Assembly: GCA_958296385.1 (NCBI GenBank)
Contig: OY282494.1
Location: 1,959,537 to 2,023,536 of the forward strand
Source: an uncultured Dehalococcoidia bacterium
GTDB lineage: Bacteria; Chloroflexota; Dehalococcoidia; Lucifugimonadales; UBA3495
Length of the DNA: 64,000 bases
Reading direction: 5' to 3'
The stretch's first letter is position 1, and each line of letters starts with the position of its first letter. The notes below the pieces were generated by a model. The model was not told the DNA's origin and searched no databases. It saw only the letters and a list, made by a program, of their open reading frames with translations. Shown here piece after piece: positions 19,570-37,473 of the stretch. The translations under genes were made by a program, and so were the position numbers.

Positions 19570-19652
19570 CCAACTAGTTCCGGTAACAGGATAGGCGTAG
19601 GCGCTGCGGAATCCAATCTAATCTAATCCAATCAAATCAAAGGATAAATGGC

Positions 19653-19740
19653 GGAGGGAGTGGGATTCGAACCCACGATCCCAGTTTCCCAGGATAAGCG
19701 CTTAGCAGGCGCCCGCACTAGACCACTATGCGATCCCTCC
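19653..19740 (-). tRNA. tRNA-Ser (anticodon GCU)
   Basis: This 88-base minus-strand gene begins GGAGGGATCGCATAGTGG and ends with the pairing CTCCCTCC; CCA is not encoded. The anticodon loop CTGCTAA gives anticodon GCU for AGC/AGU serine codons. The long variable arm typical of class II tRNAs sits between the anticodon stem and the GGTTCGAATCC T-loop. Confidence 0.95.
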
Positions 19741-19813: not shown

Positions 19814-22800
19814 TCAGGCGCGCCGCCGCACCAGCAGGGCGATGGCGCCGCCGATGATGGCCAGCGCTACTACGGCGATTATGCCGATCAGCAGCCAGGG
19901 CGCGCCGCCGCCGGCTGGTTCAGCGGCCGGCGTTACGGCAACGGTTTCGCCCCCGGCAGCGGGCGTAGGCGCAGCCATTGCCGGCGTCAGTATTGCGATT
20001 TGGGATTGCCCGTCCACCCTTAGCGTTACCTCGGAGCGTACACCTGGCGCTACGATGGGCAGCTGCAAGTCCTGCGTTTCGCCGGGCGCGACCGTAACCG
20101 TCTGACGCTGTACGACTTCGCCGGCGATTTCCAGCGTTAGTTGGTACTCGGCGGTTACGGCGCCGGGGTTGGTTACGGGGATTTGTACCATCAGCGCGCT
20201 GCCGGGCGGCGGGTTGTTGATGCTGAAGGTTATATCTCCGAGTATTGCCGGCTGCTGGATGGCGGCCGCTACCGGGGGCGGGTGCGTTGGCGGCATCGCG
20301 GTTGGCGGCGGAGCCGGTGTGGGTGTCACTGCCGGCGGTGGTGTGGGCATAGGTGTTGGCGCCGGCGTTGGCGGAACTAGCGTTGGTGTTGGCGTCGGGG
20401 CCGGTGTGGGTTTGGGGGCCGGCGTTGGCGTTGGCCTCGGGGCCGGCGTAGTACCGCCGCCGCCACTGCCGCCGGAGCCACCACCGGAACCGCCGGTAGG
20501 AGTGCCGTTGCCGTTGTCGTCATCCTCCTCATCGGGCGGCGGCTGGGGGCCGGTGGTGGTGGTTATGGTTAGGCGGCCGGCTATGAAGGGGGAGAAGTTG
20601 GTTGCGGTGCCGCAGACTTTGCCGTTTTGTTCTGTGCTGGGTACGGTTTGCCAGCGGCCCGATTGGTGGTGCAGCAGTTGGGGCGTGCCGCGGCCGCCCT
20701 GGGGCAGGGGCAGGCAGATTTGCAGGCCGCCCGGCGGCGGCGCCGGCGTTACGCTGATGTCCACCAGTGTTGCCCCGTCCAGCGTGTAGGTGGCGTGGCT
20801 GAGCGACAGGCCCGTTGGCTTGCTGAACGTTATCGTCAAGTCGCCGCTCGCGCCGGGTGGTATGCGCACGGTTATTGCCCGGGGGACGTCGCCGGCGCCG
20901 ATTACCGTTAGGGTGCTGGTGGCGCCGAGGCGGTAGGTGTCGGTGACGCCGGGCAGCGGCGGCGTGATTAGCACGGGGCTGCTGGTGGCCCCGCCGGCGT
21001 CCGGCTCCCGCAGCAGCAGCGTCAGCCCGGTGGCCGCGCCGGCGATTCCCCGCAGGCTGGGCGTGTGCAGCAGCGACGTCGCTTCGTGCTGCGCGTCGGC
21101 GTCCGCCGTGTGCACGACGGTTACCGTCTGGGGAGCGCTGTAATCGGTGGTCGTGAACTCCAGCAACTCCGGGGTAACGGTGACGGCCGGGTTGCCGCTG
21201 GCTACGGTGATGGCGATGGTGGTCGTCGTGGCTGGCAGCTCCGCCAGGGTTACGTCGTAGCGGGCGTCGCTGCCCTCTACTATGTCCAGCGTGGTGGTGG
21301 CAATGGTGGTGCCCGGCCCGGTAAAGTTGATGGCCGGCGCGGTGGTGTCCTGGACGGTTACGGTTACGTCGGAGGTGGCCTCGGTGGCCTGGTAGCCGCC
21401 GGTGGCGCTGGCGGTGTGCGTTAGCGTGTCGCTGTCGTTGACAATGTTGGCGTCGGCTACCGCTGTGACGGTTACCGTTTGCGGTGTGTTCCAGGTGCGG
21501 GCGTTGAAAGTGAGGGATGCCGGGGTTGTGGTGGCCTTGCCGTCGGCGCTGCCGATGGTTACGGTTACCGCCGCATTGGGCTGGTGGCTCAGCGCGATGG
21601 TGTAGGTTTGGCCGGTGGTTTCGCCCTCGGTTACGGTGCGGGTGGTTTCGGATAGTTCGAGTCTGCCGACGTCGTTGTCGTCTATCCTTACCGGCAGGGA
21701 TTTGGACTTGCCCTGGTAGTCTCCGTCGGCGCTGGCGGCGCGGTGGTCAATCCGGGCGTCGTTGTCGGCCAGGTCCTGGTCCGGCGCCGCTTTTACCATT
21801 ACCGTTTGCGGCGAATCCCAATCCGCGCTGGTGAACGTTAGCGTTTCGGTGTCGGTGAAATCGGTAGCGTCGTCGGGGCCGGCGACGGTCAGGCCGTTGC
21901 GGGGGGTTATGGTTATGGTTACGCTGGCGTTGTTGGCGGGCAGGGTGGGCAGCTCTACGGTGTAGCTGGCGGTGCCGGTTTCCTCGGTTACCGGCAGCGG
22001 CGTGGTGTCGGCAATCAGCTTGATGCCCGGTAGGTCGTCGTCCTCAACCCTTACGGTGAGCAGTGCGTCGCTGACGCCGGCGTAGCCGTTGGCGTTGCCG
22101 CCGGCGGCGTGGGTCAGGGTGACGGTTTCGTGCCTGGGGTCGACGTCGTTGCGCGCGCGCACGCTTACGATTTGCGCGGTGGTGGTGCCGGCGGCGAAAG
22201 TTAGCAGGGTGCTGGTGGCGAATGTTCCGCCATCGCCGGAGGACACGTCGGCGGCGGCCGGGTCGCTGCTGGTTACCCTTACCGTGAGCGGGGCCAGCGG
22301 CGGGTTGCTCGGCGCTACTTTGTAGGTGGCAGGGCCGGCATCCTCGGTTACCGCCAGCTGGGAGGCGCCGCCGGGCAGGGTTACCACGATGCGGGGTGCG
22401 GTGGTGTCCGTAGCGGCAAAGGCCAGCGTGACGGCGGGGGCAGGGCTGAACAGGCTGTCGCGGCCGGGCGTGGTATCGGCGGCGGTGTGCGTTAGCGTGT
22501 TGCCCGTGCTGTCGGCCAGGTCGTTGTCGGTGCGGCCCTGCACCGTTACAGGTTGCGGGATATGCCAGTTCGTAGTAGTAAAGCGCAGCGTTGCGAGGTT
22601 GCTGAACGTGCCGCCGGTTGCGATTTCTATGCCGTCGGTTGGGCCGCTGGCGATGGTTACGGTTACGCCGTGGGACGGCCGGTGGCTGAGCCGGACGGTG
22701 TAGGTTGCCGTGCCGCCCTCCAGAACCGTCAGGGTGCTGGTGGCTGCGATGATGGTTGGCGAGTCGTCGTCGGTTACGGTTACGGGCAGGGATTTGCGGA

Positions 22801-25800
22801 CGCCCCGGTAGGTGCTGTCCGTGCTGCCGGCGTTGGCGGCGCGGTGGAGAATGGTGGGCGTTTCGGTGGCCAGGTTGTCGTCGGCGGGGGCCTGCACCCT
22901 TACCCTTTGCACGGCGGCCCAATTGCCGGGCGTAAAGGTTAGCGTGCCGGTGTTGGCGTAGCCGCTGCCTACGTCCACTTGCAGGCCGGAGCCGGCGGCC
23001 GGGGTTATGCTGACGGTTACGTCCGCCGTGGGCTGGGTGTTCAGGCGCACCCGGTAGGCGGCGTTGCCGGCCTCGCCGATGGGCAGTTCGCTCAGCGTGC
23101 TGCTGGCGGTGTCCTGCACCAGCAGGATGCTGGACGCGTCATCCTCGGTTACCATCACCGTCTGGTCTTTGCTGACGCCCTCGTAGCCGCTGCCGGCGCC
23201 GGCGACGACGGCGTGGCTCAGGGTGACCATTTCGGCGACGGAGTTGGCGTCGGTGAGCGCGCGGAGGGTTACCGTTTGCGGCGTGGTGGTGCCGGCCGGG
23301 AACCGCAGCGTGCGGCTGCTGCCGTAGTTGGCGGGGAGGTCTGCCCCGCTGCCGTCGTGGATGGCTACGGCGTCCGCGTCGTCGCTGGTTACGGTGATTC
23401 TGATGTTCTTGACCGGCGGGTCGCTCAGCCCGATTTCGTAGGTGGTGCTGCTGGCCGCCTCCTCGGTTATCGACAGCGCGGCGGTGATGGCGATGCCGTC
23501 CTGGGTCAGGATGATGCTGCCCCGGTCGTCGTCGTTAATCTTGATGGTCAGCCCGTCGCGGGCGTCCTCAAAGCCGCTGCCGGCGCCGACGGCGGTGTGC
23601 AGCAGGACGGGTAGGTCGTTGGCCAGGTCGGTGTCGTGGGACGTCCGGAATCTTACCGTCAGGGGCGTCATCCAGTTGCTCTCGTTGAAAGTGCCCAGCG
23701 TTTCGCGCTTGCTGAACACGCTGCCGGCGTCGGGGCCGTCAAAGGTTACGTCGGCGTCGGCGGGGACGGTGATGGTTACGGTTACGGTGCTCCCCGCTTT
23801 GGGCTGGCCGCCCAGCCGGGCGGTGTAGGCGTAGGTGGTGCTGTCGCTGTCGCCCTCGTCCAAGTCAAATGCGGCGGGGGTGAACAGGATGGTATCCCGG
23901 TCCTGCCGCAGGATGTCCATACCGTCGTATTGCAGCACCGGGTACTGCACGTCGTAGCCGAAGTGCCACGGGTCGTCGTTGCCGTCGGCGTCGCCGGTTG
24001 CGGTGTTGCCGTCCAGGTTCTGGTTCCAGTTAAAGTAGGTGTCGGTGGTGGTGGCGCCGTAGGTGGTTGGCGAACGCAGCTGGTTGGTGTTGCGGGACGT
24101 GCCGAGGCCGCCGGGGGTGACTTGCCAGTTGTAATAGCTGTTGGCCACCGTGGGCCCGGAGAAATGGCCGCCGAGCAGCCCGCCCCGGCCCCCGCTGCCC
24201 CCGCTAATCACCCCGGCGGCGTAAGATGACCGGATGGCGCCCCCGATTGTCAGGCCCACCACGCCGCCGGCGTAACCGCCGCCGTGTACCCGGCCGGTAG
24301 CGTAGCTGGCTCGCACCGTGCCGTAGTTATTGTAACCCACCAGCCCGCCGGCGTAAGTGAAAAAGCCGTTGGTAGAGCTAACGCTCGCCCTGGAATAGCT
24401 GGCCTGCACGGTGCTGTAGGACAGCCCCACCAGTCCGCCGACGTAGTTGCGTTGGCTGCCGCTGTTGACCGCCACCCGGCCGGTGGTCCAGCTGGAGGTT
24501 ATCGTTGCGCCGCCGTGCAGCCGGCCGACCAGCCCGCCAATCTCTACCCGACCGCCGTTCGTACTGACCACGTTGACGTTGGGCAGGCCCACGCCGGAGA
24601 CGTGGCCGCTGAGATCGCTGAACAGCCCCATTCTGCCATGGCTGGAGCTGTTAATCTTTAGGTTGGCGATGATGTGGTGGTTGCCCTGGAAAGTTGCCCG
24701 GTAATTTCCGATGGGCGACCAGTTGGGGTAGTCGTCGCTGCTGTCCACGCTGCCGCTGTCGTCGGTGTCAAAGTCCAGGTCGGCCCGCAGTTCGTAGCCC
24801 GTGCAGCCGTCGGGACAGCCCATGCCGGTGAGCCGGCCGGGGAACGCGGCGATGTAGTCGGCGTGGGTCGTGCTGCCGCTGCCGTTCAGGTCATGGCGCA
24901 CGGCGCTCAGCTGGGCCAGGGTGGTAATGTCAATCAGGTTGTCGTCATCGTCGTCGTAGTCGATGATGATTGCTACCGTTAGCGTGGTGGTGGCGGCGCT
25001 GGCAAAGCCGCTGTCGTCGCCGGCGGCGGTGTGGGACAGCGCGGCGGTTTCGCCCAGGGTGGCAGCGTCGGCCACGCTGACCGTTACGGTTTGCGCCTCA
25101 GCGTAGTTGCTTTCGTCAAAGTTCAGCGTTGCCCGGTCAAGGGTTACGTCCGCGTGGTCGCTGGCGATGGTTACCGTTACCGGCGCTTTGGGCGGGCCGC
25201 CCAGCCGGACGGTGTAGTCGGCGCTGGCCCCCGGCCGGACGTTCAGCAGCTCCGGGGCGACGTCAATAGTGCGCCGCTCCTGCGCCAGCAAGTCCATGCC
25301 GCCGTAGCGCAGGGCGGGGTATTGGGTGGTGTAGCCGAAGTCCCAGGGGTTGTCGTTGCCGGCGGTGTCTCCGGTGCTGGCGTCGGCGTCAACGTCCACG
25401 TTCCAGCCGTAGTAGGTTTCGGTGCTGGTGCCGGTAGCGTAGGCGGCCGGCGTTTGCAGCTGGGCCGTAGTCTTGCCCTCCCCGGGGCTGGTGGACGGGT
25501 TGTCGTCGGCAATCCCGCTGGTTTCGGTGTCCCAATAGCTGTTGGTTGTCGTGGCGGCGCCGTTCAATCCCCCGGCCAGCCCGCCGACGTTGGTCGCGTT
25601 CGACGTAACCCTACCCGTTGCATAAGACGCCGTGATGGTGGTTTGGGCGTTGCCGCCCGCCACGCCGACCAGTCCGCCGACGTAACCGGCGTTGCCGGCC
25701 GTGCCGCCGGATAATGGGCCGGTGGCATAGCTGGCCGTTATCGTGCCGTTGTTCTCCAGGACCCCGACCAGCCCGCCCATTCTCATCTGCGAGGCCACCG

Positions 25801-28800
25801 CCGGGCCGGTTACCGCTACGTTGGCATAGCTGGCCCGCAGGCTGCCCGCCATAGATGACACCAGCCCGCCGAGGCTTTTAGGGTTGCCGTCGGTATTAGT
25901 GGCCGTCAGGCTGCCGGTGGCCCAGCTGGCAGTTATCGTTCCGCCGGCCGACAGGTCGGCGGCCAGCGTGCCGGCGACGAGCGGGCTGCGGGTCGCGGTG
26001 ATGTTGACGTCGGGCAGTCCTATGCCGGAGACAGCGCCCGTGATCGAGCCGAACATTGCGATAACGGCGGCGTTGGAGTTGATAGTCAGGTTGGCGATGG
26101 TGTGGTGGTTGCCCTGCAATGTGCCGGCATAGGGATTGCTGTATCCGCCGATGGGCGACCAGTTGGGATAGTCGTCGCTGCTGTCCACGGTGCCGTCGTC
26201 GTTGGTGTCAAAGTCCAGGTTGGCCGTTAGTTCGTAGCCGGCGCAGGTATCCGGGCAGCCCATGCCGGCGGACAGGCGGGGGAAGGCCGCCGCGTAGCGG
26301 GCGCTGACGCTGCCCTTGGCCACGATGCCGTTGCCGTCCAGGTCGTAGCGGATGGCGTCCAGCTGGGCCAGGGTGGTAACGTCAATCAGGTTGTTGCCGT
26401 TGGCGTAGTCCATGGGGGCCGCGCCGGGGTTGCGCTGCCGGTCAATGCCCACCGCATCCCGCTGGTATTGCAGGATGGGGTATTGGGCGGCGGTGCCAAA
26501 GTTCCAGGGGTCGTCGATGCCGCCAACGCCGTCCACGTTCACGTTCCAGCCGGCGTAGATGCTGGGGGCGGTTCCGTAGGCGGTGGGGGTGCGCAGGGCG
26601 GCGGTGGTTTGGCCCAGGCCGGCGCCGGTTCCGGTGATGCCGCTGGTGTCGGTGTCCCAATAGCTGGCGGTGATGACGGCGCTGCTGGCCGTACTGCCGG
26701 CCAGGCCGCCAATGTTAGCGTTGGCGCCGGAGCTGACCGCGCCGGTTGCGTAGGAGGCCCTGATGCTGGGCGTCGTGCCGCCGAGCGCGCCCACCAGCCC
26801 GCCGGCGAAGGAGTTGGCGCCCGCGCCGCCGGCTATTGCGCCGGTGGCATAGCTGGCCGTTATCGTGCCGCTTTGCAGCTGCCCCACCAGGCCGCCGGCT
26901 TTCACCCGCATGGCCGTAGAGGTGGCCGTTACCGATGCGGTGGCATAGCTGGCCCGCACCGTGCCGGCGCCCCAGCCCACCAGCCCGCCCACGTATTTGT
27001 CAAAGATGCCGGCGTGAGTGGCTGCCACACGGCCCGCAGCCCAGCTGGACGTTACCGTGCCGCCGGCGTTCAGCCGGCCCACCAGCGCGCCGATTTCGGG
27101 ATTAGTCGCGGCCCCGCTAACGCTGGCGTCGGGCAGTCCGATGCCGGAGAGGGCGCCGTTGAGCACCCCGAACAGCCCCACGCGGGACACGCCGGTTCCG
27201 GCGTCAATAGTCAGGTTGGCGATGGTGTGCCCGTTGCCCCGCAACGTACTGGTGAACGGCGCCGAGTAGGTTCCGATGGGCGTCCAGTTGGCATAGGGCC
27301 CGTCGGCGCTGTTGTCGCTGCTGCCATCGGTATTGAAGTCCAGGTTGGCCCGCAGCTCGTAGCCGGCGCAGGCGGCGCACAGCGTACTGCTGGCCGAGTA
27401 GGGGAAAGCGGCGGCGTAGGCGTTGGCGTTGGCCATGCTGTCCGCTACGCCGTTGCCGTCCAGGTCGTAGCGAATGGCGTTCAGCTGGTCCAGCGTAGTG
27501 ACGTCAATCAGATTGTCGTCGTCGTCATCGTAGTCGAGCAGGGGCACGGCGATAGTGACGACGTAGCTGCGGCCGGAGCCGTCCGGGGCGGCAACGGCGA
27601 TGGTGATGACCGTTTCCGGGCCGGCGAGGCTGACCTGCCAGCCGTCGGTGTTGAGGTCGGCGTCGGCCGCCGCGGCCACGCCGCCGGCCAGCGCGCTGAT
27701 GGCCACCGTAGAGCTGGCGTTGTTGGTGTAGGCCACGGTAACCGATAAGGGGTTAGACGGCGGCAGCGTGGCAGTGTAGGCCAGCGTAGAAGTAGCCGGG
27801 TCAAACCCCGCCAGCAGCGCCGGCGCCACCGTCAGCGTGTGCAGGGTATCGTCGGTGACGATGTCCGGCTGGGCGCTGAACTGCCGCGCCGTGTCCATCA
27901 TGCCGTATTGCAGAACCGGGTACTGGATATTGCTGCCAAAGTTCCAGGGGTCGTCGTTGCCGGCGGCGTCTCCGGTGCCGGTATCGCCGTCAACGTTCAC
28001 GTTCCAGTCGTGATAGGTGTTGGGCGTAGTGGTGGGCGTGTAGCCGGTGGGCGTGCGGAGTTGGAAAGTCTGGCGGCCGGCGCCGGGGCTGTTGGCCGGG
28101 TCAGCGTCGGCGATGCCGCTGGTAATCGTGTCCCAATAGCTGTCGGTGATGCTGGCGGCGCTGGCGAGGTTGGCCAGCCCGCCGATGTTGTCCGCGTTCG
28201 ACGTAACCGTACCCGTCGCATAAGACGCCGTGATGGTGGGCGTGTGAGTCCCGCGCAGCCGGCCGGCCAGGCCGCCGGCATAAGACAGGCTGCCGGCGCC
28301 GCCGGCGACGTTGCCGGTGGCATAGCTGGCGAGAATCTGGCCGTTATCCTGGGTTCCAACCAGGCCGCCGGCGCTAACCCCTGTCGCACTGCCGGATGCG
28401 GTAACCGTAACGTCGGCATAGCTGGCCCGCACCGTGCCGGCGCCATAGCCCACCAGCCCGCCGAGGGATTTATCAAGGGTGCCGGCATCCGTGGCAGTCA
28501 CGCGGCCCGTCGCCCAGCTGGAAGTTACCGTTCCGGGCAGATAGCCCACCAGCGCGCCCATCAGCAGATTGTCCGCCGTCCCGGACACGCTGGCGTTGGG
28601 CAGCCCGATGCCGGAGATGTTGCGGGTGGCGTTGCCGAACAGCCCGACCACGGCGGCGCCGGAGTTGATAGTCAAGTTGGCGATGGTGTAGTTGTTGCCG
28701 GCAAAGTCGGCGGCAAACGGATTGTTAACGTCTCCGATGGGCGTCCAGTTGGGGTAGGTGTCGCTGCTGTCCACGCCGCCGCTGTTGTCGGTGTCAAAGT

Positions 28801-31800
28801 CCAGATTTTGCCGCAGCTCGTAGCCCGTGCAGGCCGCCGGGCAGCCCATGCCGGCGGGATGGCTGGGGTAGGCGGTAGCGTAGGCGGCGGCGTTGCCGGC
28901 GCTCACCACGCCGTTGCCGTCCAGGTCGTAGCGGATGGCGTCCAGCTGGGCCAGGGTGGTGATGTCAATCAGGTTGTTGTCGTTGCGGTCGTAGTCGATG
29001 GTAATGCTTACGGGGAGGTTGGCGCTGACGCCGGCAAAGCCGCTGCCGGCGCCGGTTGCGCTGTGGGCCAGGGCGTAGTCGGCCAGAGGAGTACCGCTGG
29101 CCGCCCGGACGGTTATCGTTTGCGCGTCATCCCAGCCGGTGGTTGAGAAACTCAGCGTTTCGCTGGCGGCGAAAGTTCCGTCGCCGTCGTCAATGGTTAC
29201 GCCGGCGTTGCTGCTGGCGATGCTCACCGTTACCGCCGTCGCCGGCTCGGCCCCCAGCCGCACCGTGTAAGTTGCCGTTTCCCCCGCCTCCAGGTACAGC
29301 GCGGCGGGCACCAGCACGATGGTATCCCGGCCCTGGGCCAGCACGTCCATCCCGTCGTATTGCAGTACCGGGTACTGGACGGCGTAGCCGAAGTGCCAGG
29401 GGTCGTCGTTAGCAGACGTGCCGCCCACGTCCACGTCCCAATCGGAGTAAATGCCGGTGGTTCCGTAGGCGGTGGGCGATTGCAGCTCAGCGGTGGTTTT
29501 GCCCACGCCGGGGCTGGTGGACGGGTCGCTGTCGGCAATGCCGCTGGTGTCGGTGTCCCAATAGCTGTTGATGACTGTGCTGCCGCTCAGATGCCCGGCC
29601 AGCCCGCCGATTCTGGTGGTGGTGGTGGATGCCGTAACATATCCCGTCGCGTAAGACGCCGTTATGGTGCTGGAGGTAACCACGCCGGCCAGACCGCCGG
29701 AGGCGGAGTTGGAGTTCGGACTGCCGCCGGACACGGCTCCGGCAGCATAGCTGGCCGTAATCGTGCCGGAGTTCAGCCATCCGATTAAGCCGCCGGCTCT
29801 GGCCTGCACGGCAGCAGCCTGAGCGGTTACCGTCACCCCGGCATAGCTGGCCCGCACGTCGCCCTCGGCAAAACCCACCAGCCCGCCGATGTTTTTACTG
29901 TTAAGGTCAGCATTGGTGGATTCAATGCTGCCGGTGGCCCAGCTGGCAGTTATCGTTCCGCTCGATCCCAGATGGCCGGCCAGCGTGCCGGAGAAGGCGG
30001 GACTGCCGGTGCCGGTGACGTTGACGTCGGGCAGTCCTATGCCGGAGATGGCGCCGCTGACCGAGCCGAACAGCCCGACAACGCTGGCGCCGGAGTTGAT
30101 AGTCAGGTTGGCGATGGTGTGGTGGTTGCCCTGGAATGTGCCGGCATAGGGCGCGCCGTATGTGCCGATGGGCGTCCAGTTGGGATAGTCGTCGTCGCTG
30201 TCCACCTCGCCGCTGTCGTCGGTGTCAAAGTCCAGGTTCCGCCGCAGCTCGTAGCCCGTGCATCCGTCAGGGCAGCCCATCCCGGCGGTCAGGCCGGGGA
30301 ACGCCGCCAGGTAGGACGCGGCGCCGGCGCCGGTGACCGATACTCCATCGCCGTCCAGGTCGTAGCGGATGGCGTCCAGCTGGGCCGGCGTCGTAACGTC
30401 AATCAGGTTGTTGTTATCGCCGTCGTAGTCCTCGGCGGTACTGCTGCGCTGCCGGGCGATGCCCACGGCATCATAGCCGAATTGCAGGACGGGGTATTGA
30501 CTGGCCGTGCCAAAGTCCCAGGGGTCGTCGTTGCCGCCAACGCCGTCCACGTTCACGTTCCAGGCGAAGTAGATGTCGGTAGAGCTGCTGGTTCCGTAGG
30601 CGGTGGGCGTTTGCAGCGCGACGGTCGTCTTGCCCTCCGGGGCGTCGTCGTCGCTGTCGTCGGCAATGCCGGTGCCGGCAATGTCCCAATAGCTGGCGGT
30701 GATGGAGGTTCTGCTTTCGCCCCGGTTATCTCCGCCGGTAACCGTATGGTTGGCCCGGTTCTCTCCCACCAGGCCGCCGGTTGTGGTTGCGGCGCCGCTG
30801 GCCCCGGTTACCCGTCCGGTGGCATAGCTGGCGGTGATGCTGGCGGTGGTAATGCCGTGCACGCCGATGCCCTCAACGCCGCCCGATGAGGTAAAAGGCG
30901 TGCGGTCGCTGTTGTTGTAGCCCACCAGCCCGCCCAGCCGGTTGCTGGCGCCGGTGCCGCCGTTGACCGCGCCGGTAGCGTAGCTGGCCCGGATGTTGGC
31001 GTTGGCCCGGTTGCCGGAGTGTCCGTCGTTAGTCAGCATGGCCAGGTTTTCGCCGACCAGCCCGCCGGCGCTGGCGTTGTTGCCGGTAACGCTGACGGCC
31101 CCGGTAGCGTAGCTGGCGGTGAGGTTGCTGGTTGTCGTCACCGGGAACCCGCCGCCGTCGGCCGCCCCCTGGAACGCCCCCACCAGCCCGCCCACCCGGG
31201 CATCATCGCTGGCGGAGCTGACGGCGCCGGTGGCATAGCTGGCGGTTACCTGGCCCGGCGAGACGCGGCCCACCAGCCCGCCGGCGTTGGTAGTGGCAGA
31301 AACCGTGCCGGTGGCGTAGCTGGAGTTGATGCTGGCGTAGCTGTTGTTGAGGCCAATCAGCAGGGCCGTCAGCCCGCCGGCCTCGCCCCCCTGCGCCGTA
31401 ACGTTCACGCTGGAATAGCTGTCGGTGATGGTTCCGGGGTGGTTCACCTGCCCGGCCAAACCGCCGGCCCGGTTGCCGGTTACGGTGACGCTGCCGCCGG
31501 TAGAGTAGCTGTTGGCAATAGCGCCGCCGGCGTGGCCCACCAGCGCGCCGGCCCGCCCCTCCGCGCGGATGTTCACGTCCGCCAGCCCGATGTTCCGCAG
31601 CGTGGCCCCGTTAGTGCGCCCGAACAGCCCCACCCGGTTGCCCGCCGGACGGTTGATATACAGATTGGAGATGGCGTAGTCGTCGTTGTTGCCGTCGAAA
31701 GTAGCGGCAAATTGAGCGGTATTGTCCCCGATGGGCAGCCACCCCAGACCGCCGTTGGAATAGGCGTCGTCGGCGCGGTCGTTGGCGGTGTTGGTGTCAA

Positions 31801-32584
31801 AGTCCAGGTCGGCCCGCAGCTCGTAGCCGGCGCAGGTGCCGGCGCAGCCCATCCGCCCGGTAGCGGAAGTTACGCGGTTGGGAAACGCATCAATGTAAGC
31901 CGCCGTCCCCGACGCCGTAGGATCGCCGTCACCGTCCAAGTCCCACCGGATGGCGTCCAGCTGCGCCAGAGTCGTAACGTCAATCAGGTTGTCGTCGTCG
32001 TCGTCATAGTCGATAACGTTAACCTTGTGCGCGGCCTGAGCGGTAGCCAGCGTGTTGGGGAGGGTAAGGTTGATCAGGGGGCTATTACTGCCGGAGTGCT
32101 GGTGAAAATAAGCGCCGACGAGGGCGTTGGTGGCCACGGTGATGCCGTCGGTGTCCGTGTCGCCGCCGACGACCGTATAAGCGAAGTCAACGCTGGTGCT
32201 GTTTGGCGTGGTACTGGGCGGGCGGGCCTGGCGGTTGGAGCCGCCAATGTTGATGTTCAGATAGCCGCCGGTTTGCACGATGGCGTCCGCAAAGGTCAGC
32301 CGCACCGTAATGGTCTCGCCGGTGAGATAAGCGCTGCCCGAGGCGGGAGTGCTGGCGATGCTGATAGCGGTGACGCTGTTGGTGTGCGCGGCGGTCGGCC
32401 GGGACTCCGGCAGCAGCCAGCCGGCCAGTGCCGCCAGCACCACCAGCAGGCCCAGCGCAAAGCCGGCCCCAACCGGCGCAAAGCGAAATCTGACGCTGCG
32501 GCGGCGGCGGGGCATCAGAATTCTACCCCCCCCGTTCCGAACATTCGCACTACGCAGCATACACCCACCCCAACCGGCAGCCAT
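19814..32584 (-). CDS. Giant modular surface protein (GLUG blocks, Calx-beta-like array, stalk, membrane anchor)
   Basis: The protein has about 4,256 residues. ATG 32584 has GGAGG 8 bases upstream. After a basic start and signal helix (about 35-60) come six blocks at roughly 190, 720, 1195, 1685, 2060 and 2540. Each opens with an Asp-rich DYDDDDDNLIDVTT-type segment and a Cys pair (GMGCPDGCTGYEL), runs through GLUG-type repeats (GGLVG...ASYATG), and most close with SYWDTDTSGI and DDPWNFG...YPVLQY. Calx-beta-like modules lie between some blocks; eight more follow in tandem at about 2,895-3,875 (TVTDDDSP-type ends). Then come a Gly/Ser linker, a PTPAP stalk, an Ig-like domain, a transmembrane helix and RRRA. 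It is likely a calcium-stiffened adhesin standing off the cell surface. No LPXTG or type 1 secretion tail is seen. Confidence 0.88.
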   Translation of the reverse strand: MAAGWGGCMLRSANVRNGGGRILMPRRRRSVRFRFAPVGAGFALGLLVVLAALAGWLLPESRPTAAHTNSVTAISIASTPASGSAYLTGETITVRLTFADAIVQTGGYLNINIGGSNRQARPPSTTPNSTSVDFAYTVVGGDTDTDGITVATNALVGAYFHQHSGSNSPLINLTLPNTLATAQAAHKVNVIDYDDDDDNLIDVTTLAQLDAIRWDLDGDGDPTASGTAAYIDAFPNRVTSATGRMGCAGTCAGYELRADLDFDTNTANDRADDAYSNGGLGWLPIGDNTAQFAATFDGNNDDYAISNLYINRPAGNRVGLFGRTNGATLRNIGLADVNIRAEGRAGALVGHAGGAIANSYSTGGSVTVTGNRAGGLAGQVNHPGTITDSYSSVNVTAQGGEAGGLTALLIGLNNSYASINSSYATGTVSATTNAGGLVGRVSPGQVTASYATGAVSSASDDARVGGLVGAFQGAADGGGFPVTTTSNLTASYATGAVSVTGNNASAGGLVGENLAMLTNDGHSGNRANANIRASYATGAVNGGTGASNRLGGLVGYNNSDRTPFTSSGGVEGIGVHGITTASITASYATGRVTGASGAATTTGGLVGENRANHTVTGGDNRGESRTSITASYWDIAGTGIADDSDDDAPEGKTTVALQTPTAYGTSSSTDIYFAWNVNVDGVGGNDDPWDFGTASQYPVLQFGYDAVGIARQRSSTAEDYDGDNNNLIDVTTPAQLDAIRYDLDGDGVSVTGAGAASYLAAFPGLTAGMGCPDGCTGYELRRNLDFDTDDSGEVDSDDDYPNWTPIGTYGAPYAGTFQGNHHTIANLTINSGASVVGLFGSVSGAISGIGLPDVNVTGTGSPAFSGTLAGHLGSSGTITASWATGSIESTNADLNSKNIGGLVGFAEGDVRASYAGVTVTAQAAAVQARAGGLIGWLNSGTITASYAAGAVSGGSPNSNSASGGLAGVVTSSTITASYATGYVTASTTTTRIGGLAGHLSGSTVINSYWDTDTSGIADSDPSTSPGVGKTTAELQSPTAYGTTGIYSDWDVDVGGTSANDDPWHFGYAVQYPVLQYDGMDVLAQGRDTIVLVPAALYLEAGETATYTVRLGAEPATAVTVSIASSNAGVTIDDGDGTFAASETLSFSTTGWDDAQTITVRAASGTPLADYALAHSATGAGSGFAGVSANLPVSITIDYDRNDNNLIDITTLAQLDAIRYDLDGNGVVSAGNAAAYATAYPSHPAGMGCPAACTGYELRQNLDFDTDNSGGVDSSDTYPNWTPIGDVNNPFAADFAGNNYTIANLTINSGAAVVGLFGNATRNISGIGLPNASVSGTADNLLMGALVGYLPGTVTSSWATGRVTATDAGTLDKSLGGLVGYGAGTVRASYADVTVTASGSATGVSAGGLVGTQDNGQILASYATGNVAGGAGSLSYAGGLAGRLRGTHTPTITASYATGTVTSNADNIGGLANLASAASITDSYWDTITSGIADADPANSPGAGRQTFQLRTPTGYTPTTTPNTYHDWNVNVDGDTGTGDAAGNDDPWNFGSNIQYPVLQYGMMDTARQFSAQPDIVTDDTLHTLTVAPALLAGFDPATSTLAYTATLPPSNPLSVTVAYTNNASSTVAISALAGGVAAAADADLNTDGWQVSLAGPETVITIAVAAPDGSGRSYVVTIAVPLLDYDDDDDNLIDVTTLDQLNAIRYDLDGNGVADSMANANAYAAAFPYSASSTLCAACAGYELRANLDFNTDGSSDNSADGPYANWTPIGTYSAPFTSTLRGNGHTIANLTIDAGTGVSRVGLFGVLNGALSGIGLPDASVSGAATNPEIGALVGRLNAGGTVTSSWAAGRVAATHAGIFDKYVGGLVGWGAGTVRASYATASVTATSTAMRVKAGGLVGQLQSGTITASYATGAIAGGAGANSFAGGLVGALGGTTPSIRASYATGAVSSGANANIGGLAGSTASSAVITASYWDTDTSGITGTGAGLGQTTAALRTPTAYGTAPSIYAGWNVNVDGVGGIDDPWNFGTAAQYPILQYQRDAVGIDRQRNPGAAPMDYANGNNLIDVTTLAQLDAIRYDLDGNGIVAKGSVSARYAAAFPRLSAGMGCPDTCAGYELTANLDFDTNDDGTVDSSDDYPNWSPIGGYSNPYAGTLQGNHHTIANLTINSNAAVIAMFGSITGAVSGIGLPDVNITATRSPLVAGTLAADLSAGGTITASWATGSLTATNTDGNPKSLGGLVSSMAGSLRASYANVAVTGPAVASQMRMGGLVGVLENNGTITASYATGPLSGGTAGNAGYVGGLVGVAGGNAQTTITASYATGRVTSNATNVGGLAGGLNGAATTTNSYWDTETSGIADDNPSTSPGEGKTTAQLQTPAAYATGTSTETYYGWNVDVDADASTGDTAGNDNPWDFGYTTQYPALRYGGMDLLAQERRTIDVAPELLNVRPGASADYTVRLGGPPKAPVTVTIASDHADVTLDRATLNFDESNYAEAQTVTVSVADAATLGETAALSHTAAGDDSGFASAATTTLTVAIIIDYDDDDDNLIDITTLAQLSAVRHDLNGSGSTTHADYIAAFPGRLTGMGCPDGCTGYELRADLDFDTDDSGSVDSSDDYPNWSPIGNYRATFQGNHHIIANLKINSSSHGRMGLFSDLSGHVSGVGLPNVNVVSTNGGRVEIGGLVGRLHGGATITSSWTTGRVAVNSGSQRNYVGGLVGLSYSTVQASYSRASVSSTNGFFTYAGGLVGYNNYGTVRASYATGRVHGGGYAGGVVGLTIGGAIRSSYAAGVISGGSGGRGGLLGGHFSGPTVANSYYNWQVTPGGLGTSRNTNQLRSPTTYGATTTDTYFNWNQNLDGNTATGDADGNDDPWHFGYDVQYPVLQYDGMDILRQDRDTILFTPAAFDLDEGDSDSTTYAYTARLGGQPKAGSTVTVTITVPADADVTFDGPDAGSVFSKRETLGTFNESNWMTPLTVRFRTSHDTDLANDLPVLLHTAVGAGSGFEDARDGLTIKINDDDRGSIILTQDGIAITAALSITEEAASSTTYEIGLSDPPVKNIRITVTSDDADAVAIHDGSGADLPANYGSSRTLRFPAGTTTPQTVTLRALTDANSVAEMVTLSHAVVAGAGSGYEGVSKDQTVMVTEDDASSILLVQDTASSTLSELPIGEAGNAAYRVRLNTQPTADVTVSITPAAGSGLQVDVGSGYANTGTLTFTPGNWAAVQRVRVQAPADDNLATETPTILHRAANAGSTDSTYRGVRKSLPVTVTDDDSPTIIAATSTLTVLEGGTATYTVRLSHRPSHGVTVTIASGPTDGIEIATGGTFSNLATLRFTTTNWHIPQPVTVQGRTDNDLADSTGNTLTHTAADTTPGRDSLFSPAPAVTLAFAATDTTAPRIVVTLPGGASQLAVTEDAGPATYKVAPSNPPLAPLTVRVTSSDPAAADVSSGDGGTFATSTLLTFAAGTTTAQIVSVRARNDVDPRHETVTLTHAAGGNANGYAGVSDALLTVRVEDDDLPGIKLIADTTPLPVTEETGTASYTVELPTLPANNASVTITITPRNGLTVAGPDDATDFTDTETLTFTSADWDSPQTVMVKAAPDQDLADNDARIDHRAASADGDYQGKSKSLPVRIDDNDVGRLELSETTRTVTEGETTGQTYTIALSHQPNAAVTVTIGSADGKATTTPASLTFNARTWNTPQTVTVTAVADANIVNDSDTLTHTASATGGYQATEATSDVTVTVQDTTAPAINFTGPGTTIATTTLDIVEGSDARYDVTLAELPATTTTIAITVASGNPAVTVTPELLEFTTTDYSAPQTVTVVHTADADAQHEATSLLHTPSLRGIAGAATGLTLLLREPDAGGATSSPVLITPPLPGVTDTYRLGATSTLTVIGAGDVPRAITVRIPPGASGDLTITFSKPTGLSLSHATYTLDGATLVDISVTPAPPPGGLQICLPLPQGGRGTPQLLHHQSGRWQTVPSTEQNGKVCGTATNFSPFIAGRLTITTTTGPQPPPDEEDDDNGNGTPTGGSGGGSGGSGGGGTTPAPRPTPTPAPKPTPAPTPTPTLVPPTPAPTPMPTPPPAVTPTPAPPPTAMPPTHPPPVAAAIQQPAILGDITFSINNPPPGSALMVQIPVTNPGAVTAEYQLTLEIAGEVVQRQTVTVAPGETQDLQLPIVAPGVRSEVTLRVDGQSQIAILTPAMAAPTPAAGGETVAVTPAAEPAGGGAPWLLIGIIAVVALAIIGGAIALLVRRRA

Positions 32585-32650
32585 CGGCAAAACCTCCATG
32601 CCCAACAAGCACAACAAGGCAGCAACCAGCGCAAAGCATAACGATGGCAG

Positions 32651-32678
32651 ATTTTACCACAAACCCAGCCGCAACCAA
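32651..32678 (-). promoter_or_regulatory. Possible promoter of the giant surface gene
   Basis: The minus strand has TTGGTT (32678-32673), 16 bases, and TAAAAT (32656-32651), about 67 bases upstream of the chosen ATG. The -10 is good and the -35 is weak. Confidence 0.35.
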
Positions 32679-32714: not shown

Positions 32715-33587
32715 CTACTCCCCGCGCACCCGCCGCAACTCCGCCTCCAACTCCAGATTACGCGCCTCAGCACTGTCGGCGCGAGCCTCGGCCTGTTCGG
32801 AGTAGGCTTCGGCCTGGATGCGGGCGGCCTGTTCCTGCTCAGCACGGGCCTCCGCCTGGAGACGGCCGGCCTGTTCCTGCTCAGCGCGGGCTTCGGCCTG
32901 GAGGCGGGCGTTGCGCTCGATGTTGCGGGCCTCCCGCTCATCGAGCAACGTCGGGATGTGCTGGCCGGTTTCCGGGTCGTACCAGCCCAGCAGACCCTGC
33001 TCCCCCTGCACACGCTCCCACCGCAGGTACAAGTTCAGCACGGGGCTGTACCCCTGCAAAGAGCCATCCGGCAATTCCTCAATCGGAATGGGCTCATACT
33101 GCCCATCCACCAGCCGGTCGCCGGCCAGCTTGTCGCCATGAAACTCCCCCGTTTCATCAACACGCCAGTACTCCGGAATGCCCAACGCCGCATACTCCAC
33201 CCGCTTTTGCAGCACGTCCACCTTGGCCGTACTCACCGAGGCAACCTCCATCACAAAATCCGGCGGCTTGCCCTGCTCCGTGATTAGATAACCCCCGGTA
33301 GCCTTGTAAGCGGCCGGATTCACGTCAAAAGCGATGAGCAAATCAGGCCGGCGCAGTCCGGTAGTGCCGGGGCGCGGCCCGTAGGCCAGCCAAAAATCGG
33401 CGGTTACCAAAGTCGTATCCGGGTTGCCCAGGTACTGGATTAGGTGGTAGCTGCTACCCGTCTGGTGCAGCTGTATGTAGTTAGTCATCTCATCAGGCTC
33501 ACGTTGAGGCGGCTCCGGAAACCGGAAACGGACCGGAGTTGGCGGTGGCGCGGACGTTGGCGCTGCTTTGGCGGTGGTGGTGGTCAT
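32715..33587 (-). CDS. Uma2-family protein with coiled-coil tail, copy 1 of 3
   Basis: The protein has about 290 residues. A low-complexity start (MTTTTAKAAPTSAPPPTP) leads to PEPPQREPDEM. The Uma2 core follows: TTLVTADFWLAYGPRPGTTGLRRPDLLIAFDV, GKPPDFVMEVASVST, EYAALGIPEYWRVDE and a YSPVLNLYLRWE strand. After WYDPETGQHIPTLLDEREARN comes a 90-residue helical tail of AEARAEQEQAGRLQ repeats, predicted coiled coil. ATG 33587 has an AGGTGAGG site; the GTG at 33599 is less likely. It is first of three head-to-tail paralogues by position and last by transcription. The PD-(D/E)xK-like residues look intact. Function is unknown. Confidence 0.83.
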   Translation of the reverse strand: MTTTTAKAAPTSAPPPTPVRFRFPEPPQREPDEMTNYIQLHQTGSSYHLIQYLGNPDTTLVTADFWLAYGPRPGTTGLRRPDLLIAFDVNPAAYKATGGYLITEQGKPPDFVMEVASVSTAKVDVLQKRVEYAALGIPEYWRVDETGEFHGDKLAGDRLVDGQYEPIPIEELPDGSLQGYSPVLNLYLRWERVQGEQGLLGWYDPETGQHIPTLLDEREARNIERNARLQAEARAEQEQAGRLQAEARAEQEQAARIQAEAYSEQAEARADSAEARNLELEAELRRVRGE

Positions 33588-33736
33588 GCTGAACCTCACC
33601 TCTGGAACCCGGCGGTGTGGATGGACGGATGGATGGCCCGTTGCGCCGTATGGGACGGGATGCGGTGCTTGCGGCGTAGTATAGCGGGTTTTGGCGGCTG
33701 ACCGAAAAAGCGGGCAGTCTAGCCCGGCCGGGACGC

Positions 33737-34606
33737 CTACCCACCGCCGCGCAGCCGCCGCAACTCCCCCTCCAACTCCCGATTACGCGCCTCAGCCTGC
33801 AAGCGTGCGCCGCGTTCCTGCTCAGCGCGGGCCTGTTCCTGCTCAGAACGAGCCTCCGCCTGCTCAGACCGGGCCTCCGCCTGGAGACGGCCGGCCTGTT
33901 CCTGCTCAGCGCGAGCCTCGGCCCGGAGGCGGGCCTCCCGCTCATCGAGCAGCGTCGGGATGTGCTGCCCGGTTTCCGGGTCGTACCAGCCCAACATACC
34001 CTGCTCCCCCTGCACGCGCTCCCACCGCAGGTACACGTTCAGCACGGGGCTGTAACCCTGCAAAGACCCATCCAGCAGTTCCTCAATAGGGATAGGCGCA
34101 TACCGGCCATTCACCAAACGGTCGCCGGCCAGCCGCACTCCGTGAGAATCCCCCGTCTCGTCAAAGCGCCAGTACTCCAGGATGCCCAGCCCCGCATAAT
34201 CAGCCGGCTTTTCCTCAACGTCCACCTTGCCCGTGCTTGGCGAGGCTATTTCCAGCACAAAGTCCGGCGGCTTGCCCTGCTCCGTGATTAGATAACCCCG
34301 GGTGGCATGGTAAGCCTGCGGGTCAACGTCAAAAGCCACGAGCAAATCAGGCAGACGCAGGCCGGTAGTGCCGGGGCGCGGCCCACGCGCAATCCAACGG
34401 TCCGCGGTGACCAGGGTGGTAGCCTCATTGCCGAGATACCGGGCCAGGTGGTGGCAATGGCCCGTATAGGTCATTTGTCGGTGGTTAGTCATTGACTCAT
34501 CAATCTCACGTTCGGGCGGGTCCGGGAACCGGAAACGGGCCGGGGCCGGCGATGGCGGCGGCGGGGTTTTGACGGCGATGGCGGTGTTAGCGGTGGTGGT
34601 GGTCAT
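33737..34606 (-). CDS. Uma2-family protein with coiled-coil tail, copy 2 of 3
   Basis: The protein has 289 residues, the same build as its two neighbours: a Thr/Ala/Pro-rich start, RFRFPDPPEREIDESM, a core with TTLVTADRWIARGPRPGTTGL, LPDLLVAFDVDP, KPPDFVLEIASPSTGKVD and GILEYWRFDE, then the conserved WYDPETGQHIPTLLDEREA linker. The tail is a run of AEQEQA/QAEARSEQ repeats and the end is ELRRLRGGG. AGAGG lies six bases before ATG 34606. The coiled-coil tail differs in repeat number from the other copies, so tail length is evolving by repeat gain and loss. It is possibly co-transcribed with both neighbours. Confidence 0.83.
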   Translation of the reverse strand: MTTTTANTAIAVKTPPPPSPAPARFRFPDPPEREIDESMTNHRQMTYTGHCHHLARYLGNEATTLVTADRWIARGPRPGTTGLRLPDLLVAFDVDPQAYHATRGYLITEQGKPPDFVLEIASPSTGKVDVEEKPADYAGLGILEYWRFDETGDSHGVRLAGDRLVNGRYAPIPIEELLDGSLQGYSPVLNVYLRWERVQGEQGMLGWYDPETGQHIPTLLDEREARLRAEARAEQEQAGRLQAEARSEQAEARSEQEQARAEQERGARLQAEARNRELEGELRRLRGGG

Positions 34607-34654
34607 GCTGAACCTCTGGAGCCTGATGGGACACGGTTTGAGCGGCGCCGGGGG

Positions 34655-35434
34655 CTAGCCGCCACGCAGCCGCCGGTTTTCCTCCTCCAATTCGCGAACC
34701 CTGGCTTCGGCGCGGAGGCGGCCGGCCTGCTCCTGCTCCGCACGGGCTTCAGCCTGGAGGAGGGCGGCCTGCTTGTCGCGGATGGTTGGGATGTGCTGCC
34801 CGGTTTCCGGGTCGTACCAGCCCAACTGCCCCCGCTCCGCCTCCCCCGGCACGCGCTCCCACCGCAGGTACAGGTTCAGCGCCGCGCTGTACCCCTGCAA
34901 AGACCCATCCGGCAGTTCCTCAATCGGGATGGGCTCGTACTGGCCGTCCACCAGCCGGTCGCCGGCCAGCTTGGTGCGGTGAAACTCCCCCGTTTCATCA
35001 AAGCGCCAGTACTCCGGAATACCCAGCGCCGCATACTCCACCCGTTTCTCCCCCACGTCCACGCTGGCCGTGCTTACCGACGCCACCTCCAGCACAAAGT
35101 CCGGCGGCTTGCCCTGCTCCGAGATTAGATAGCCCCCGGTGGCATCGTAAGCGGCCGGGTCCACGTCAAAAGCAATTAGCAAATCCGGCCGGCGCAGGCC
35201 CCTGGTGCCGGGGCGCGGCCCCTGGGCAACCCAAAGGTCAGCGGCCACCAGAGTGGTATCAGAATTGCCAAAGTAAAAGTCGAGGTAGTGGCTGCTGCCC
35301 GTTTTGTGCAGTTGTTTGAAGCTGGTCATCTCATCAGGCTCACGTTGGGGCGGCTCCGGAAACCGGAAACGGCCCGGGGCGGACGGCGTTTTGGTGGCAA
35401 TGGTGGTGGCGGTGTTTGTGGTGGTAGTGGTCAT
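34655..35434 (-). CDS. Uma2-family protein with coiled-coil tail, copy 3 of 3
   Basis: The protein has about 259 residues and carries the shortest tail of the three. The core motifs are TTLVAADLWVAQGPRPGTRGLRRPDLLIAFDVDP, KPPDFVLEVASVSTASVD, YAALGIPEYWRFDE and YSAALNLYLRWERVPGEAERGQLGWYDPE. A brief AEARAEQEQAGRLRAEARVRELEEENRRL coiled coil then ends the protein. ATG 35434 follows AGAGG by five bases, exactly as in copy 2, and the three leader regions are alike, indicating duplication of whole genes with their translation signals. It is the promoter-proximal gene if the three form an operon. Confidence 0.83.
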   Translation of the reverse strand: MTTTTTNTATTIATKTPSAPGRFRFPEPPQREPDEMTSFKQLHKTGSSHYLDFYFGNSDTTLVAADLWVAQGPRPGTRGLRRPDLLIAFDVDPAAYDATGGYLISEQGKPPDFVLEVASVSTASVDVGEKRVEYAALGIPEYWRFDETGEFHRTKLAGDRLVDGQYEPIPIEELPDGSLQGYSAALNLYLRWERVPGEAERGQLGWYDPETGQHIPTIRDKQAALLQAEARAEQEQAGRLRAEARVRELEEENRRLRGG

Positions 35435-35487
35435 ACTAACCTCTGAGCCTGATGGGACACGGTGCGCCGTATTGTACCAACGCGTTT

Positions 35488-37473
35488 TCAATCGGCCGAT
35501 TGCCGGCCCCGGTTTTCCTCGTTGTTGCGTTCGCCCGTTTCGGCGTTCTCCCGTCGTGCCGTCACCCGTTCCTCCAGCAGCGCCCACAGTTCGTCGCGTT
35601 CGTCCAGATGCTCGATGGCGGCGGCTACCAGCAGTTCGGAGGGTTGTTCGCCGGTGTTGCCGGCCTGGCGTAGTTGGCGGGCGCGCACGCGCTGGCGGGG
35701 GCCGGGCATCTCTACGTCCATCAGCTCGTATTCGTCGGCCTCGTGGTCATCGGGGACGGACAGGCTGGGCTGCGGTATGAACGTATCCCGGAACGCCGGC
35801 TCCAGGATGCGGTGCACCCTAAAGCTGATTACGCTCATCGCCAGCGCCGGCGCCAGCAGCAGCAGCAGCGACAGCGGCGTGGACAGGCTGCCCAGCGCGA
35901 ACAGCCGGATTACCAGCGGCAGCGTCAGTATGAACAGCGCCAGCAGCAGCACCGTCGCCAGCCCGTTCTGCACCATCGCACGCAGCGTCCGCCACAGCGG
36001 GTCGGTGTCGCTCGTCGCCTCCGTGTACCCCGTCGCCAGCCGCGCCAGCACCCGCAGCGAGCGCCACATATTTATCATCGGCGGCGTCGACAGTCCCACC
36101 ACCGTCCCCCCCATAATCAGCCCAAAGGTGGATTGGGAGATGGGCAGCACGTTCGGCAGCGTGTACAGGCAGACCGTGGCAATCGCCGTGATTACCGCGA
36201 TGATGCACATATCAATCAGGATGTTGCGCCCCAGGATGCGCAGCCGGTTGCCGGTGTTCCCCCCGATGGACAGCGACGACCAGAACGTGTCCACGCCCAG
36301 CTGGATTGACAGGGTGACCTCGTGCAGCGTGGACGGCGCGCTCCGTTCGATCCACAGGCACAGCGGCAGGGCGAACCGCCGGGTGAGCGGCGCCAGCACC
36401 GACGTAATCGCCGTGGCGATGGCCAGTATCGGCCCCAGCGCCCCCGCGCCCATCGCGTCCGTTGGCGATACCCGCCCGATGGCCAGCGAGAACTCCCCCA
36501 TCTGCGGCATCGACATCCCCACCTGCACCGCGTCACGGGGGTTGCGCCCGGCCATAATCGACCCAATCAGGTTGGCCACCATCTTGCCCACCATAAACAC
36601 CGCCACCACCGCCAGCGCCGGCAGAATGTAGTCGTCCAGCGTCCGGTAGTCAATCAGCATACCGATGGACAGAAAGAACAGCGCCCCGAACATATCCCGC
36701 ACCGGGCTCACCAGACGGGTTACCCGGTTGGCCGCCGCCGTGTCGCCAATCACCACGCCAATCAGGAACGCCCCGGCCGCCGACGACAGCCCCAGCAGGT
36801 TGGCGCACAACGCCAGCAGGAAGCACAGCCCCAGGCTGCCAATCAGCAGCGTTTCGTTGGTCTGCCCCCGGCCCAGCACCCGCATCACCCGCGGCACCAG
36901 CAGCGCGCCGAACGTCAGCACGGCGATGCAGAATATCGCCAGCTTGCCCACCAGCCAGCCCACGTCAGCGAGACTGGTCGTTCCGGTAGTGGCCAGCCCG
37001 GTCAGGATGGTCAGCAGAATGACGGCGGCAAAGTCCTCCACCAGCAGGATGCCCACGATGGTTTGACCCCAGCCGGAGCGCAGGTTGCCGGTATCCCGCA
37101 GCCCTTTCAGCAGTATCGCCGAGCTGCTGATGGCCAGCGCGCCGCCCAGATAAAGCCCATGCGAATCGGGAATACCGGGTATCGCGCTGGCCAGCCACAC
37201 CCCAAAGAACGTCAGCACGCTGATTTCCACCGCCCCGATGACCAGCACCCGGAAACCGACGCTCTGTATCCGGCGCCAGCCCAGCTCCAGCCCGATGCCG
37301 AACAGCAGCAGCACCAGCCCCAGCTCGGCCAGCAGCCCGATGACCTCCAGGTTGCCGATGAGCGGGTTGGGCAGCGTGTACGGGCCAATCAGCAGCCCGG
37401 TCAGCAGGTAGCCCAGCACCGGCGGCTGCCACGCCAGCCGGGCCAAAGCCAGCCCACCGGCGGCAATGGCCAT
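35488..37473 (-). CDS. Kef-type (CPA2) monovalent cation:proton antiporter
   Basis: The protein has 661 residues from ATG 37473. The N-terminal half is the Na/H-exchanger fold of CPA2 transporters: QPPVLGYLLTGLLIGPYTLPNP, AELGLVLLLFGIGLEL, ALAISSSAILLKGLRDTG, GAFLIGVVIGDT and GMSMPQMGEFSLAIGRV, with about 12 membrane helices. After residue 410 come further hydrophobic segments and a hydrophilic acidic C-terminus instead of a clear TrkA-N domain. The reading frame stays open upstream and reads DILLAIFTAG...GLLKDFAVAMAIAAG, which looks like the missing first helix, but I find no ATG, GTG or TTG with a ribosome site there. The true start may be non-standard, or the gene may be mildly damaged. 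Confidence 0.82.
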   Translation of the reverse strand: MAIAAGGLALARLAWQPPVLGYLLTGLLIGPYTLPNPLIGNLEVIGLLAELGLVLLLFGIGLELGWRRIQSVGFRVLVIGAVEISVLTFFGVWLASAIPGIPDSHGLYLGGALAISSSAILLKGLRDTGNLRSGWGQTIVGILLVEDFAAVILLTILTGLATTGTTSLADVGWLVGKLAIFCIAVLTFGALLVPRVMRVLGRGQTNETLLIGSLGLCFLLALCANLLGLSSAAGAFLIGVVIGDTAAANRVTRLVSPVRDMFGALFFLSIGMLIDYRTLDDYILPALAVVAVFMVGKMVANLIGSIMAGRNPRDAVQVGMSMPQMGEFSLAIGRVSPTDAMGAGALGPILAIATAITSVLAPLTRRFALPLCLWIERSAPSTLHEVTLSIQLGVDTFWSSLSIGGNTGNRLRILGRNILIDMCIIAVITAIATVCLYTLPNVLPISQSTFGLIMGGTVVGLSTPPMINMWRSLRVLARLATGYTEATSDTDPLWRTLRAMVQNGLATVLLLALFILTLPLVIRLFALGSLSTPLSLLLLLAPALAMSVISFRVHRILEPAFRDTFIPQPSLSVPDDHEADEYELMDVEMPGPRQRVRARQLRQAGNTGEQPSELLVAAAIEHLDERDELWALLEERVTARRENAETGERNNEENRGRQSAD

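Follow-up and report, generated by a model that had tools for sequence, protein, structure and literature searches.

The 64-kb stretch of DNA analysed here (the window) belongs to a Dehalococcoidia (Chloroflexota) genome of 3.3 Mb assembled as a single contig. Its minus strand carries an open reading frame, positions 19814-32617, of 4,267 codons with no stop. The end that an earlier note on this DNA had given to the gene, 32584, proves to be an ATG eight bases after a GGAGG, and from this Shine-Dalgarno-served start the giant surface-protein gene, hereafter gene W, encodes 4,256 amino acids. The one intact 12.8-kb gene described in that note is thus real, and neither a frameshift nor an assembly artefact, which the note had named as possible refutations, left any sign in this copy. 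The features of W and its immediate surroundings are listed in order of transcription; the signal and the C-terminal helix were judged from sequence only.

32715..33599, minus strand: Uma2-family gene directly upstream of W, a pairing seen at ten giant loci
32651..32663, minus strand: TTTGTGGTAAAAT, resembling an extended -10 element and conserved where the upstream regions of paralogues align, with no -35 consensus
32593..32597, minus strand: GGAGG Shine-Dalgarno-like site, kept in paralogues
19814..32584, minus strand: giant surface-protein gene (gene W)
32582..32584, minus strand: first ATG, which in W shares the frame of the giant ORF
32526..32533, minus strand: poly-G run, 8 G in W (6-20 in paralogues), proposed slippage site
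32513..32515, minus strand: second ATG (MPRRRR...), alternative start, overlapping an other-frame TGA (TGATG)
32411..32461, minus strand: predicted hydrophobic core of a Sec-type signal
32012..32386, minus strand: N-terminal module common to some paralogues
30482..32011, minus strand: block 1, with extra GLUG units
29360..30430, minus strand: block 2
29000..29326, minus strand: Calx/Ig-like module between blocks 2 and 3
27908..28996, minus strand: block 3 (modelled as a beta-helix with a helical cap)
27536..27868, minus strand: different module between blocks 3 and 4, without a Pfam family
26468..27535, minus strand: block 4
25307..26413, minus strand: block 5
24965..25273, minus strand: Calx/Ig-like module between blocks 5 and 6
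23930..24961, minus strand: block 6
20996..23896, minus strand: eight tandem Calx/Ig-like modules, each of about 110-129 residues
20558..20995, minus strand: two-Cys domain without a Pfam match
20261..20557, minus strand: Pro/Gly-rich stalk
20006..20236, minus strand: possible CARDB/Ig-like membrane-proximal domain (weak match, below cut-off)
19817..19900, minus strand: predicted C-terminal transmembrane helix and RRRA tail
19649..19740, minus strand: tRNA-Ser(GCT), directly downstream of W

The protein is dominated by six long blocks of about 345-510 residues each, which together span positions 32011 down to 23930; taking block 1 as the reference, blocks 2-6 align with it at 50-56% identity. 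As the earlier note had described, every block has an Asp-rich opening (N-L-I-D-[VI]-T-T), a Cys pair (C-x3-C, but C-x2-C in block 4) and GLUG repeats, and each ends in a closing segment, D-x-P-W-x-F-G...QYP, with QYP-x-L at the terminus. The GLUG family (PF07581) matches W in 11 stretches at 92.8 bits (E 5e-27) against a Pfam gathering score of 20.5. W resembles the known GLUG-motif repeat proteins in this respect, but here a larger, defined block is built around the GLUG run, between a conserved opener and a closing D-D-P-W-x-F-G...QYP. The alternation of blocks with Calx-beta-like modules that the note proposed holds for only two of the five junctions (2/3 and 5/6); the 3/4 junction has a different module, and junctions 1/2 and 4/5 have none. 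After block 6 come exactly the eight tandem modules that had been counted, then the two-Cys domain, the Pro-rich stalk, the CARDB-like domain, the transmembrane helix and RRRA. The Asp-rich segments that the note likened to calcium sites are putative ones at most, and no EF-hand or other calcium family was found.

AlphaFold2 predicts block 3 with high confidence (pLDDT 88.7, pTM 0.91) as a helical cap followed by a beta-helix. By VIA-align, the model is closest to 3n6z, a putative IgA1 protease of Bacteroides ovatus (Z 32.4 over 289 residues), followed by the IgA1 proteases of Streptococcus pneumoniae and G. haemolysans (Z 22-25), with other beta-helices at Z 13.7 or less. A sequence profile built from the blocks matches the same IgA1-protease entries at E 3e-18, so that the likeness to the M26 IgA1 metalloproteases (ZmpA/IgA1P) is found in sequence as well as in fold, and their N-terminal beta-helix fold spans the whole W block, helical cap included. 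W differs from them in several ways: it lacks the protease part, a motif search of the protein found no HExxH, the LPxTG motif is missing, and there are six copies of the domain, each with its Asp-rich opener and Cys pair. Given the fold and profile matches and the absence of HExxH, the block as modelled is an IgA1-protease beta-helix without the protease. Proteolysis by W itself was considered and ruled out, since there is no HExxH and the ZmpA model scores 53 bits where 3000 are required.

Could the blocks instead be enzymes of another kind, polysaccharide lyase-like beta-helices displayed on a stalk? Lyases, a fucoidan lyase and tailspikes do appear as second-tier structural matches (Z about 11-13). 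However, Z falls from 32 to 13 on reaching them, the blocks have no carbohydrate-enzyme Pfam match, and the beta-helix of the pneumococcal IgA1 protease takes part in active-site gating and is not the catalytic part (PMC7695701). We consider this very unlikely.

The model of the tandem module is an Ig-like sandwich (pLDDT 90). Pfam Calx-beta (PF03160) reaches only 15.5 bits, below its 27-bit cut-off, and a sequence search of the modules against PDB returned nothing useful. The best fold matches are pilus chaperones (Z 11.9) and not a Calx protein; 3gin (E454K-CBD1, the Calx-beta domain of NCX1) scores Z 9.9 among Ig-like folds too numerous to favour any one of them. We thus refer to a module predicted to be Ig-like and not decidedly Calx-beta.

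LapA-type giant repetitive adhesins have long arrays of Ig-like or Calx-beta-like spacers. One W module has a weak match to the Pfam LapA domain, and W is like these adhesins in being anchored at one terminus and in the very long tandem array of its Ig-like spacers; it differs from them in having no identified RTX or type 1 secretion region and in ending with a single C-terminal helix and an Arg tail. The helix runs straight into RRRA, and sortase anchoring is ruled out by the lack of an LPxTG (a motif search found neither LPxTG nor LPxTA), in agreement with the non-sortase anchor, stalk and RRRA-tailed helix of the earlier note.

Based on these observations, we regard W with fair confidence as a surface-anchored fibrous protein on IgA1-protease-type beta-helices, and it is probably an adhesin: the likely picture is of a Sec-exported, C-terminally membrane-anchored fibrous adhesin, one of at least 11 paralogues. 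Eight Ig-like modules and a Pro-rich stalk would separate the six beta-helix domains, which lack a protease, from the single helix and RRRA that hold the protein in the membrane. We infer surface exposure, and the faces of the beta-helices may bind ligands of a host matrix or of neighbouring cells multivalently.

The family to which W belongs escaped the note, as did the IgA1-protease relationship of the block and the G-run leader described below. It comprises about a dozen giant genes, at least 11 paralogues counting W, with products of up to 8,579 residues, and the block occurs about 90 times in the genome in some sixteen frames; the frames inspected sum to 53,203 aa, or 4.8% of the genome. 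Most have a common N-terminus and anchor (the 7,915-aa product of paralogue C has a different C-terminus). The C-terminal module of W is found at 14 places (13 besides W itself): eleven giant-family loci and three others, one of which encodes an LRR protein. Together with its architecture, this agrees with the note's naming of W as a giant modular membrane-anchored surface protein. As a separate observation, several frameshifts break up the giant genes at G000:C1:2954019-2991400 (L098-L100) of the same genome, leaving pieces whose open frames measure 1,640, 2,158, 1,896 and 6,186 aa, with no long homopolymer at the breaks checked.

Blocks were found in 10 of 14 genomes of the genus and in 28 of the 294 sampled from the class. 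A complete sister genome (G006; OY282456.1, uncultured Dehalococcoidia) has 49 block matches, and a single-contig genome of the same genus (G010) has one. More distant full-length relatives, 29-43% identical, lie in Latescibacteria (L062, L067) and Acidimicrobiales (L070) records; this suggests either that the family is old and held in common or that it has passed between lineages living side by side.

This distribution bears on a different role for the giant proteins, as structural components of an S-layer-like wall in which beta-helices and Ig modules build the cell coat. The proteins of the family are indeed numerous, very long, repetitive, acidic and poor in Lys, and have a membrane anchor; in Dehalococcoides, too, a wall of S-layer-like type has come under discussion (PMC10608941). 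One would expect a main coat protein to occur universally, however, whereas this family is patchy in both the class and the genus, and its many paralogues are unequal, with differing sets of blocks. We therefore think a wall unlikely and continue to favour an adhesin.

A Uma2 gene of one subfamily lies on the same strand directly upstream of ten giant loci (the genome has 91 Uma2 matches in all); at W, three tandem Uma2-family genes occupy 32715-35587. Downstream, the tRNA-Ser-miaB pair is kept in the genus and the DNA beyond the tRNA differs between genomes, as at an integration site, which it may resemble. A conserved giant locus at tRNA-Ser was ruled out: a giant gene adjoins the tRNA in none of the nine longer regions fetched, and their flanks differ. 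Rfam found the tRNA as the only structured RNA in the window. A 15-bp tandem repeat, TGACGAAACCGAGAT, lies at 14173-14229 (3.8 copies, 97% matches). The named relatives of the genome (bins COS3 and IRC2, and chromosome-level MAG assemblies) come from marine metagenomes, probably in large part those of sponges: the two bin names would suit Coscinoderma and Ircinia, sponges that PMC8163846 sampled. From the names of these relatives, the organism may be sponge-associated.

The earlier note also expected length to vary between strains through recombination of similar blocks. Variation between species is evident: a tree of 125 blocks pairs W4, W5 and W6 as sisters with, respectively, blocks 1, 2 and 3 of a 3,382-aa protein of the sister genome, which is 66% identical to W and colinear over W residues 1684-3784 (numbered from the first ATG). 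The orthologue has three blocks to the six of W, and tree and colinearity together imply that it lacks W blocks 1-3 or that W gained them. The block tree alone gives an alike pattern for paralogues E and B and their counterparts L051 and L053 in the sister genome (6 vs 2 and 11 vs 9 blocks, respectively). Block W1 groups in the same tree with block 4 of paralogue B as its sister, a sign that genes have exchanged blocks, and the spacers between blocks are mostly of two sizes, about 8-11 or about 106-121 residues, making block-block-module a recurring superunit. The mechanism envisaged in the note fares less well. Exchange over evolutionary time is visible, but DNA identity among the W blocks is only 59-76%, with a longest exact repeat of 51 bp, and this modest present-day similarity leaves frequent homologous shuffling within a strain unsupported.

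Most paralogues also have a leader in common, which is present in the sister species. Its order in the alignment is TTTGTG-TAAAAT, GGAGG, ATG, about 50 bases, a G-run, a second ATG and the signal sequence; a consensus scan found no sigma-70 promoter upstream of W. The G-run varies widely in length: 8 in W and B, 20 in D, 12 in E, 13 in H, 14 in I, 15 in J, 7 in A, 6 in F1 and 17 in F2, and 8, 10, 11 and 16 in leaders of the sister genome, bearing in mind that such lengths are error-prone in assemblies. The run is interrupted in paralogue G. In two leaders of the sister genome, those of L051 and L053 (L229, L228), a C-run and then a short G-run precede the second ATG instead, and a hairpin is possible there. 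Flanking their runs of 13 and 15 G, the H and J leaders agree at 74 of 80 positions on one side and at 70 of 70 on the other. Five leaders (W, B, D, H and L053) have the upstream ATG in frame with the giant protein and nine do not, an even spread of the 14 over frames 0, 1 and 2 (5/4/5), and in most copies a TGA or TAA in one frame overlaps the second ATG (TGATG, ATGA or TAATG). The family thus has a repeat of variable length at the 5' end, whose length sets the leaders in different frames, as is typical of contingency loci. In W itself the run is only 8 G, a length also found elsewhere in the window.

We propose, as a supported hypothesis rather than a result, that this leader mediates phase variation. 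Slippage of the G-run in the shared leader would alter expression of the giant genes individually, as a switch or as a means of tuning, giving three states: a fused N-terminus, re-initiation coupled from stop to start, or a misframed product. Each cell would then show its own combination of giant surface fibres. In its full form, with two-ATG-leader poly-G runs setting each giant adhesin to one of three states and poly-C runs acting in glycosyltransferase, sulfotransferase and LRR-surface genes, such homopolymer phase variation in Chloroflexota is a reading that we advance tentatively, at somewhat short of an even chance.

A plainer account is that the G-run serves the second ATG only as a flexible Shine-Dalgarno site and drifts neutrally in length, with no switching; were the second ATG the sole start, the frame of the leader would be irrelevant. 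This agrees with the even spread of leader frames, with the position of the run, which in most copies precedes the second ATG by about 4-12 bases, a distance at which a Shine-Dalgarno site can work, and with the peptide between the two ATGs, which is not obviously conserved as protein. It does not explain why GGAGG and an ATG are conserved about 60-100 bases upstream in aligned copies, runs of 13-20 G exceed any Shine-Dalgarno need, and similar long runs interrupt the coding frame of other membrane-protein genes. We hold this account possible but doubtful.

The last of these points comes from the genome as a whole, in which the runs were located by pattern searches and their expected number was taken from an independent-base model. 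In all, 21 G-runs have a length of at least 11, six of them leaders of the giant family, and 11 one of at least 16, where about 0.07-0.14 would be expected for independent bases. Others interrupt or abut genes for PMT-type mannosyltransferases, a GT2 glycosyltransferase, a sulfotransferase and the LRR protein with the shared anchor, and some (e.g. those at 1495793, 1679396 and 1685960) have no clear target gene. A pair of adjacent paralogous genes for membrane proteins, at 372.6 and 375.1 kb (G000:C1:372576 and 375092; L172 and L173), without a Pfam match, have poly-C runs of 24 and 13 bases: the frame is broken with the 24-base run and open with the 13-base run. Two fragmented assemblies of the same genus (G003, G005) also have many runs, and the genome with a single block match has none of at least 14.

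Assembly artefact is a highly improbable source of the repeat number or of the G-runs. Sequencing is known to be weak at homopolymers, and paralogues F, I and J are frameshifted, but W is intact, and its blocks differ by at least 24% in DNA, which makes collapse or expansion of its repeats unlikely. The G-runs, moreover, sit at the same site in many paralogues, and an independent assembly has them as well.

Phase variation by the G-run would place these genes beside known systems. Like the repeat-controlled phase-variable adhesin HMW1A (PMC8262952), they are probable surface adhesin genes with a slippable repeat at the 5' end, and, as in other repeat-controlled contingency loci, glycan-modifying genes are further apparent targets in the genome. 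The differences are that the candidate switch is here read from sequence and that a leader with two ATGs and stop-start overlaps allows three possible outcomes. Poly-G contingency loci occur in Neisseria and Campylobacter, and it is mainly in host-adapted pathogens that repertoires of phase-variable adhesins are known. Our literature searches on phase variation in Chloroflexota/Chloroflexi or sponge symbionts, and on GLUG in Chloroflexota, returned nothing relevant. Proteins of this kind are known; as far as we found, the switch is a novelty for the phylum if it is real.

With blocks gained or lost between sister species, the giant loci offer a natural series in which to follow how giant proteins evolve. 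If the runs do switch genes, an uncultured, host-associated phylum would diversify its surface as host-adapted pathogens do, and existing long-read metagenomes can test that switching directly.
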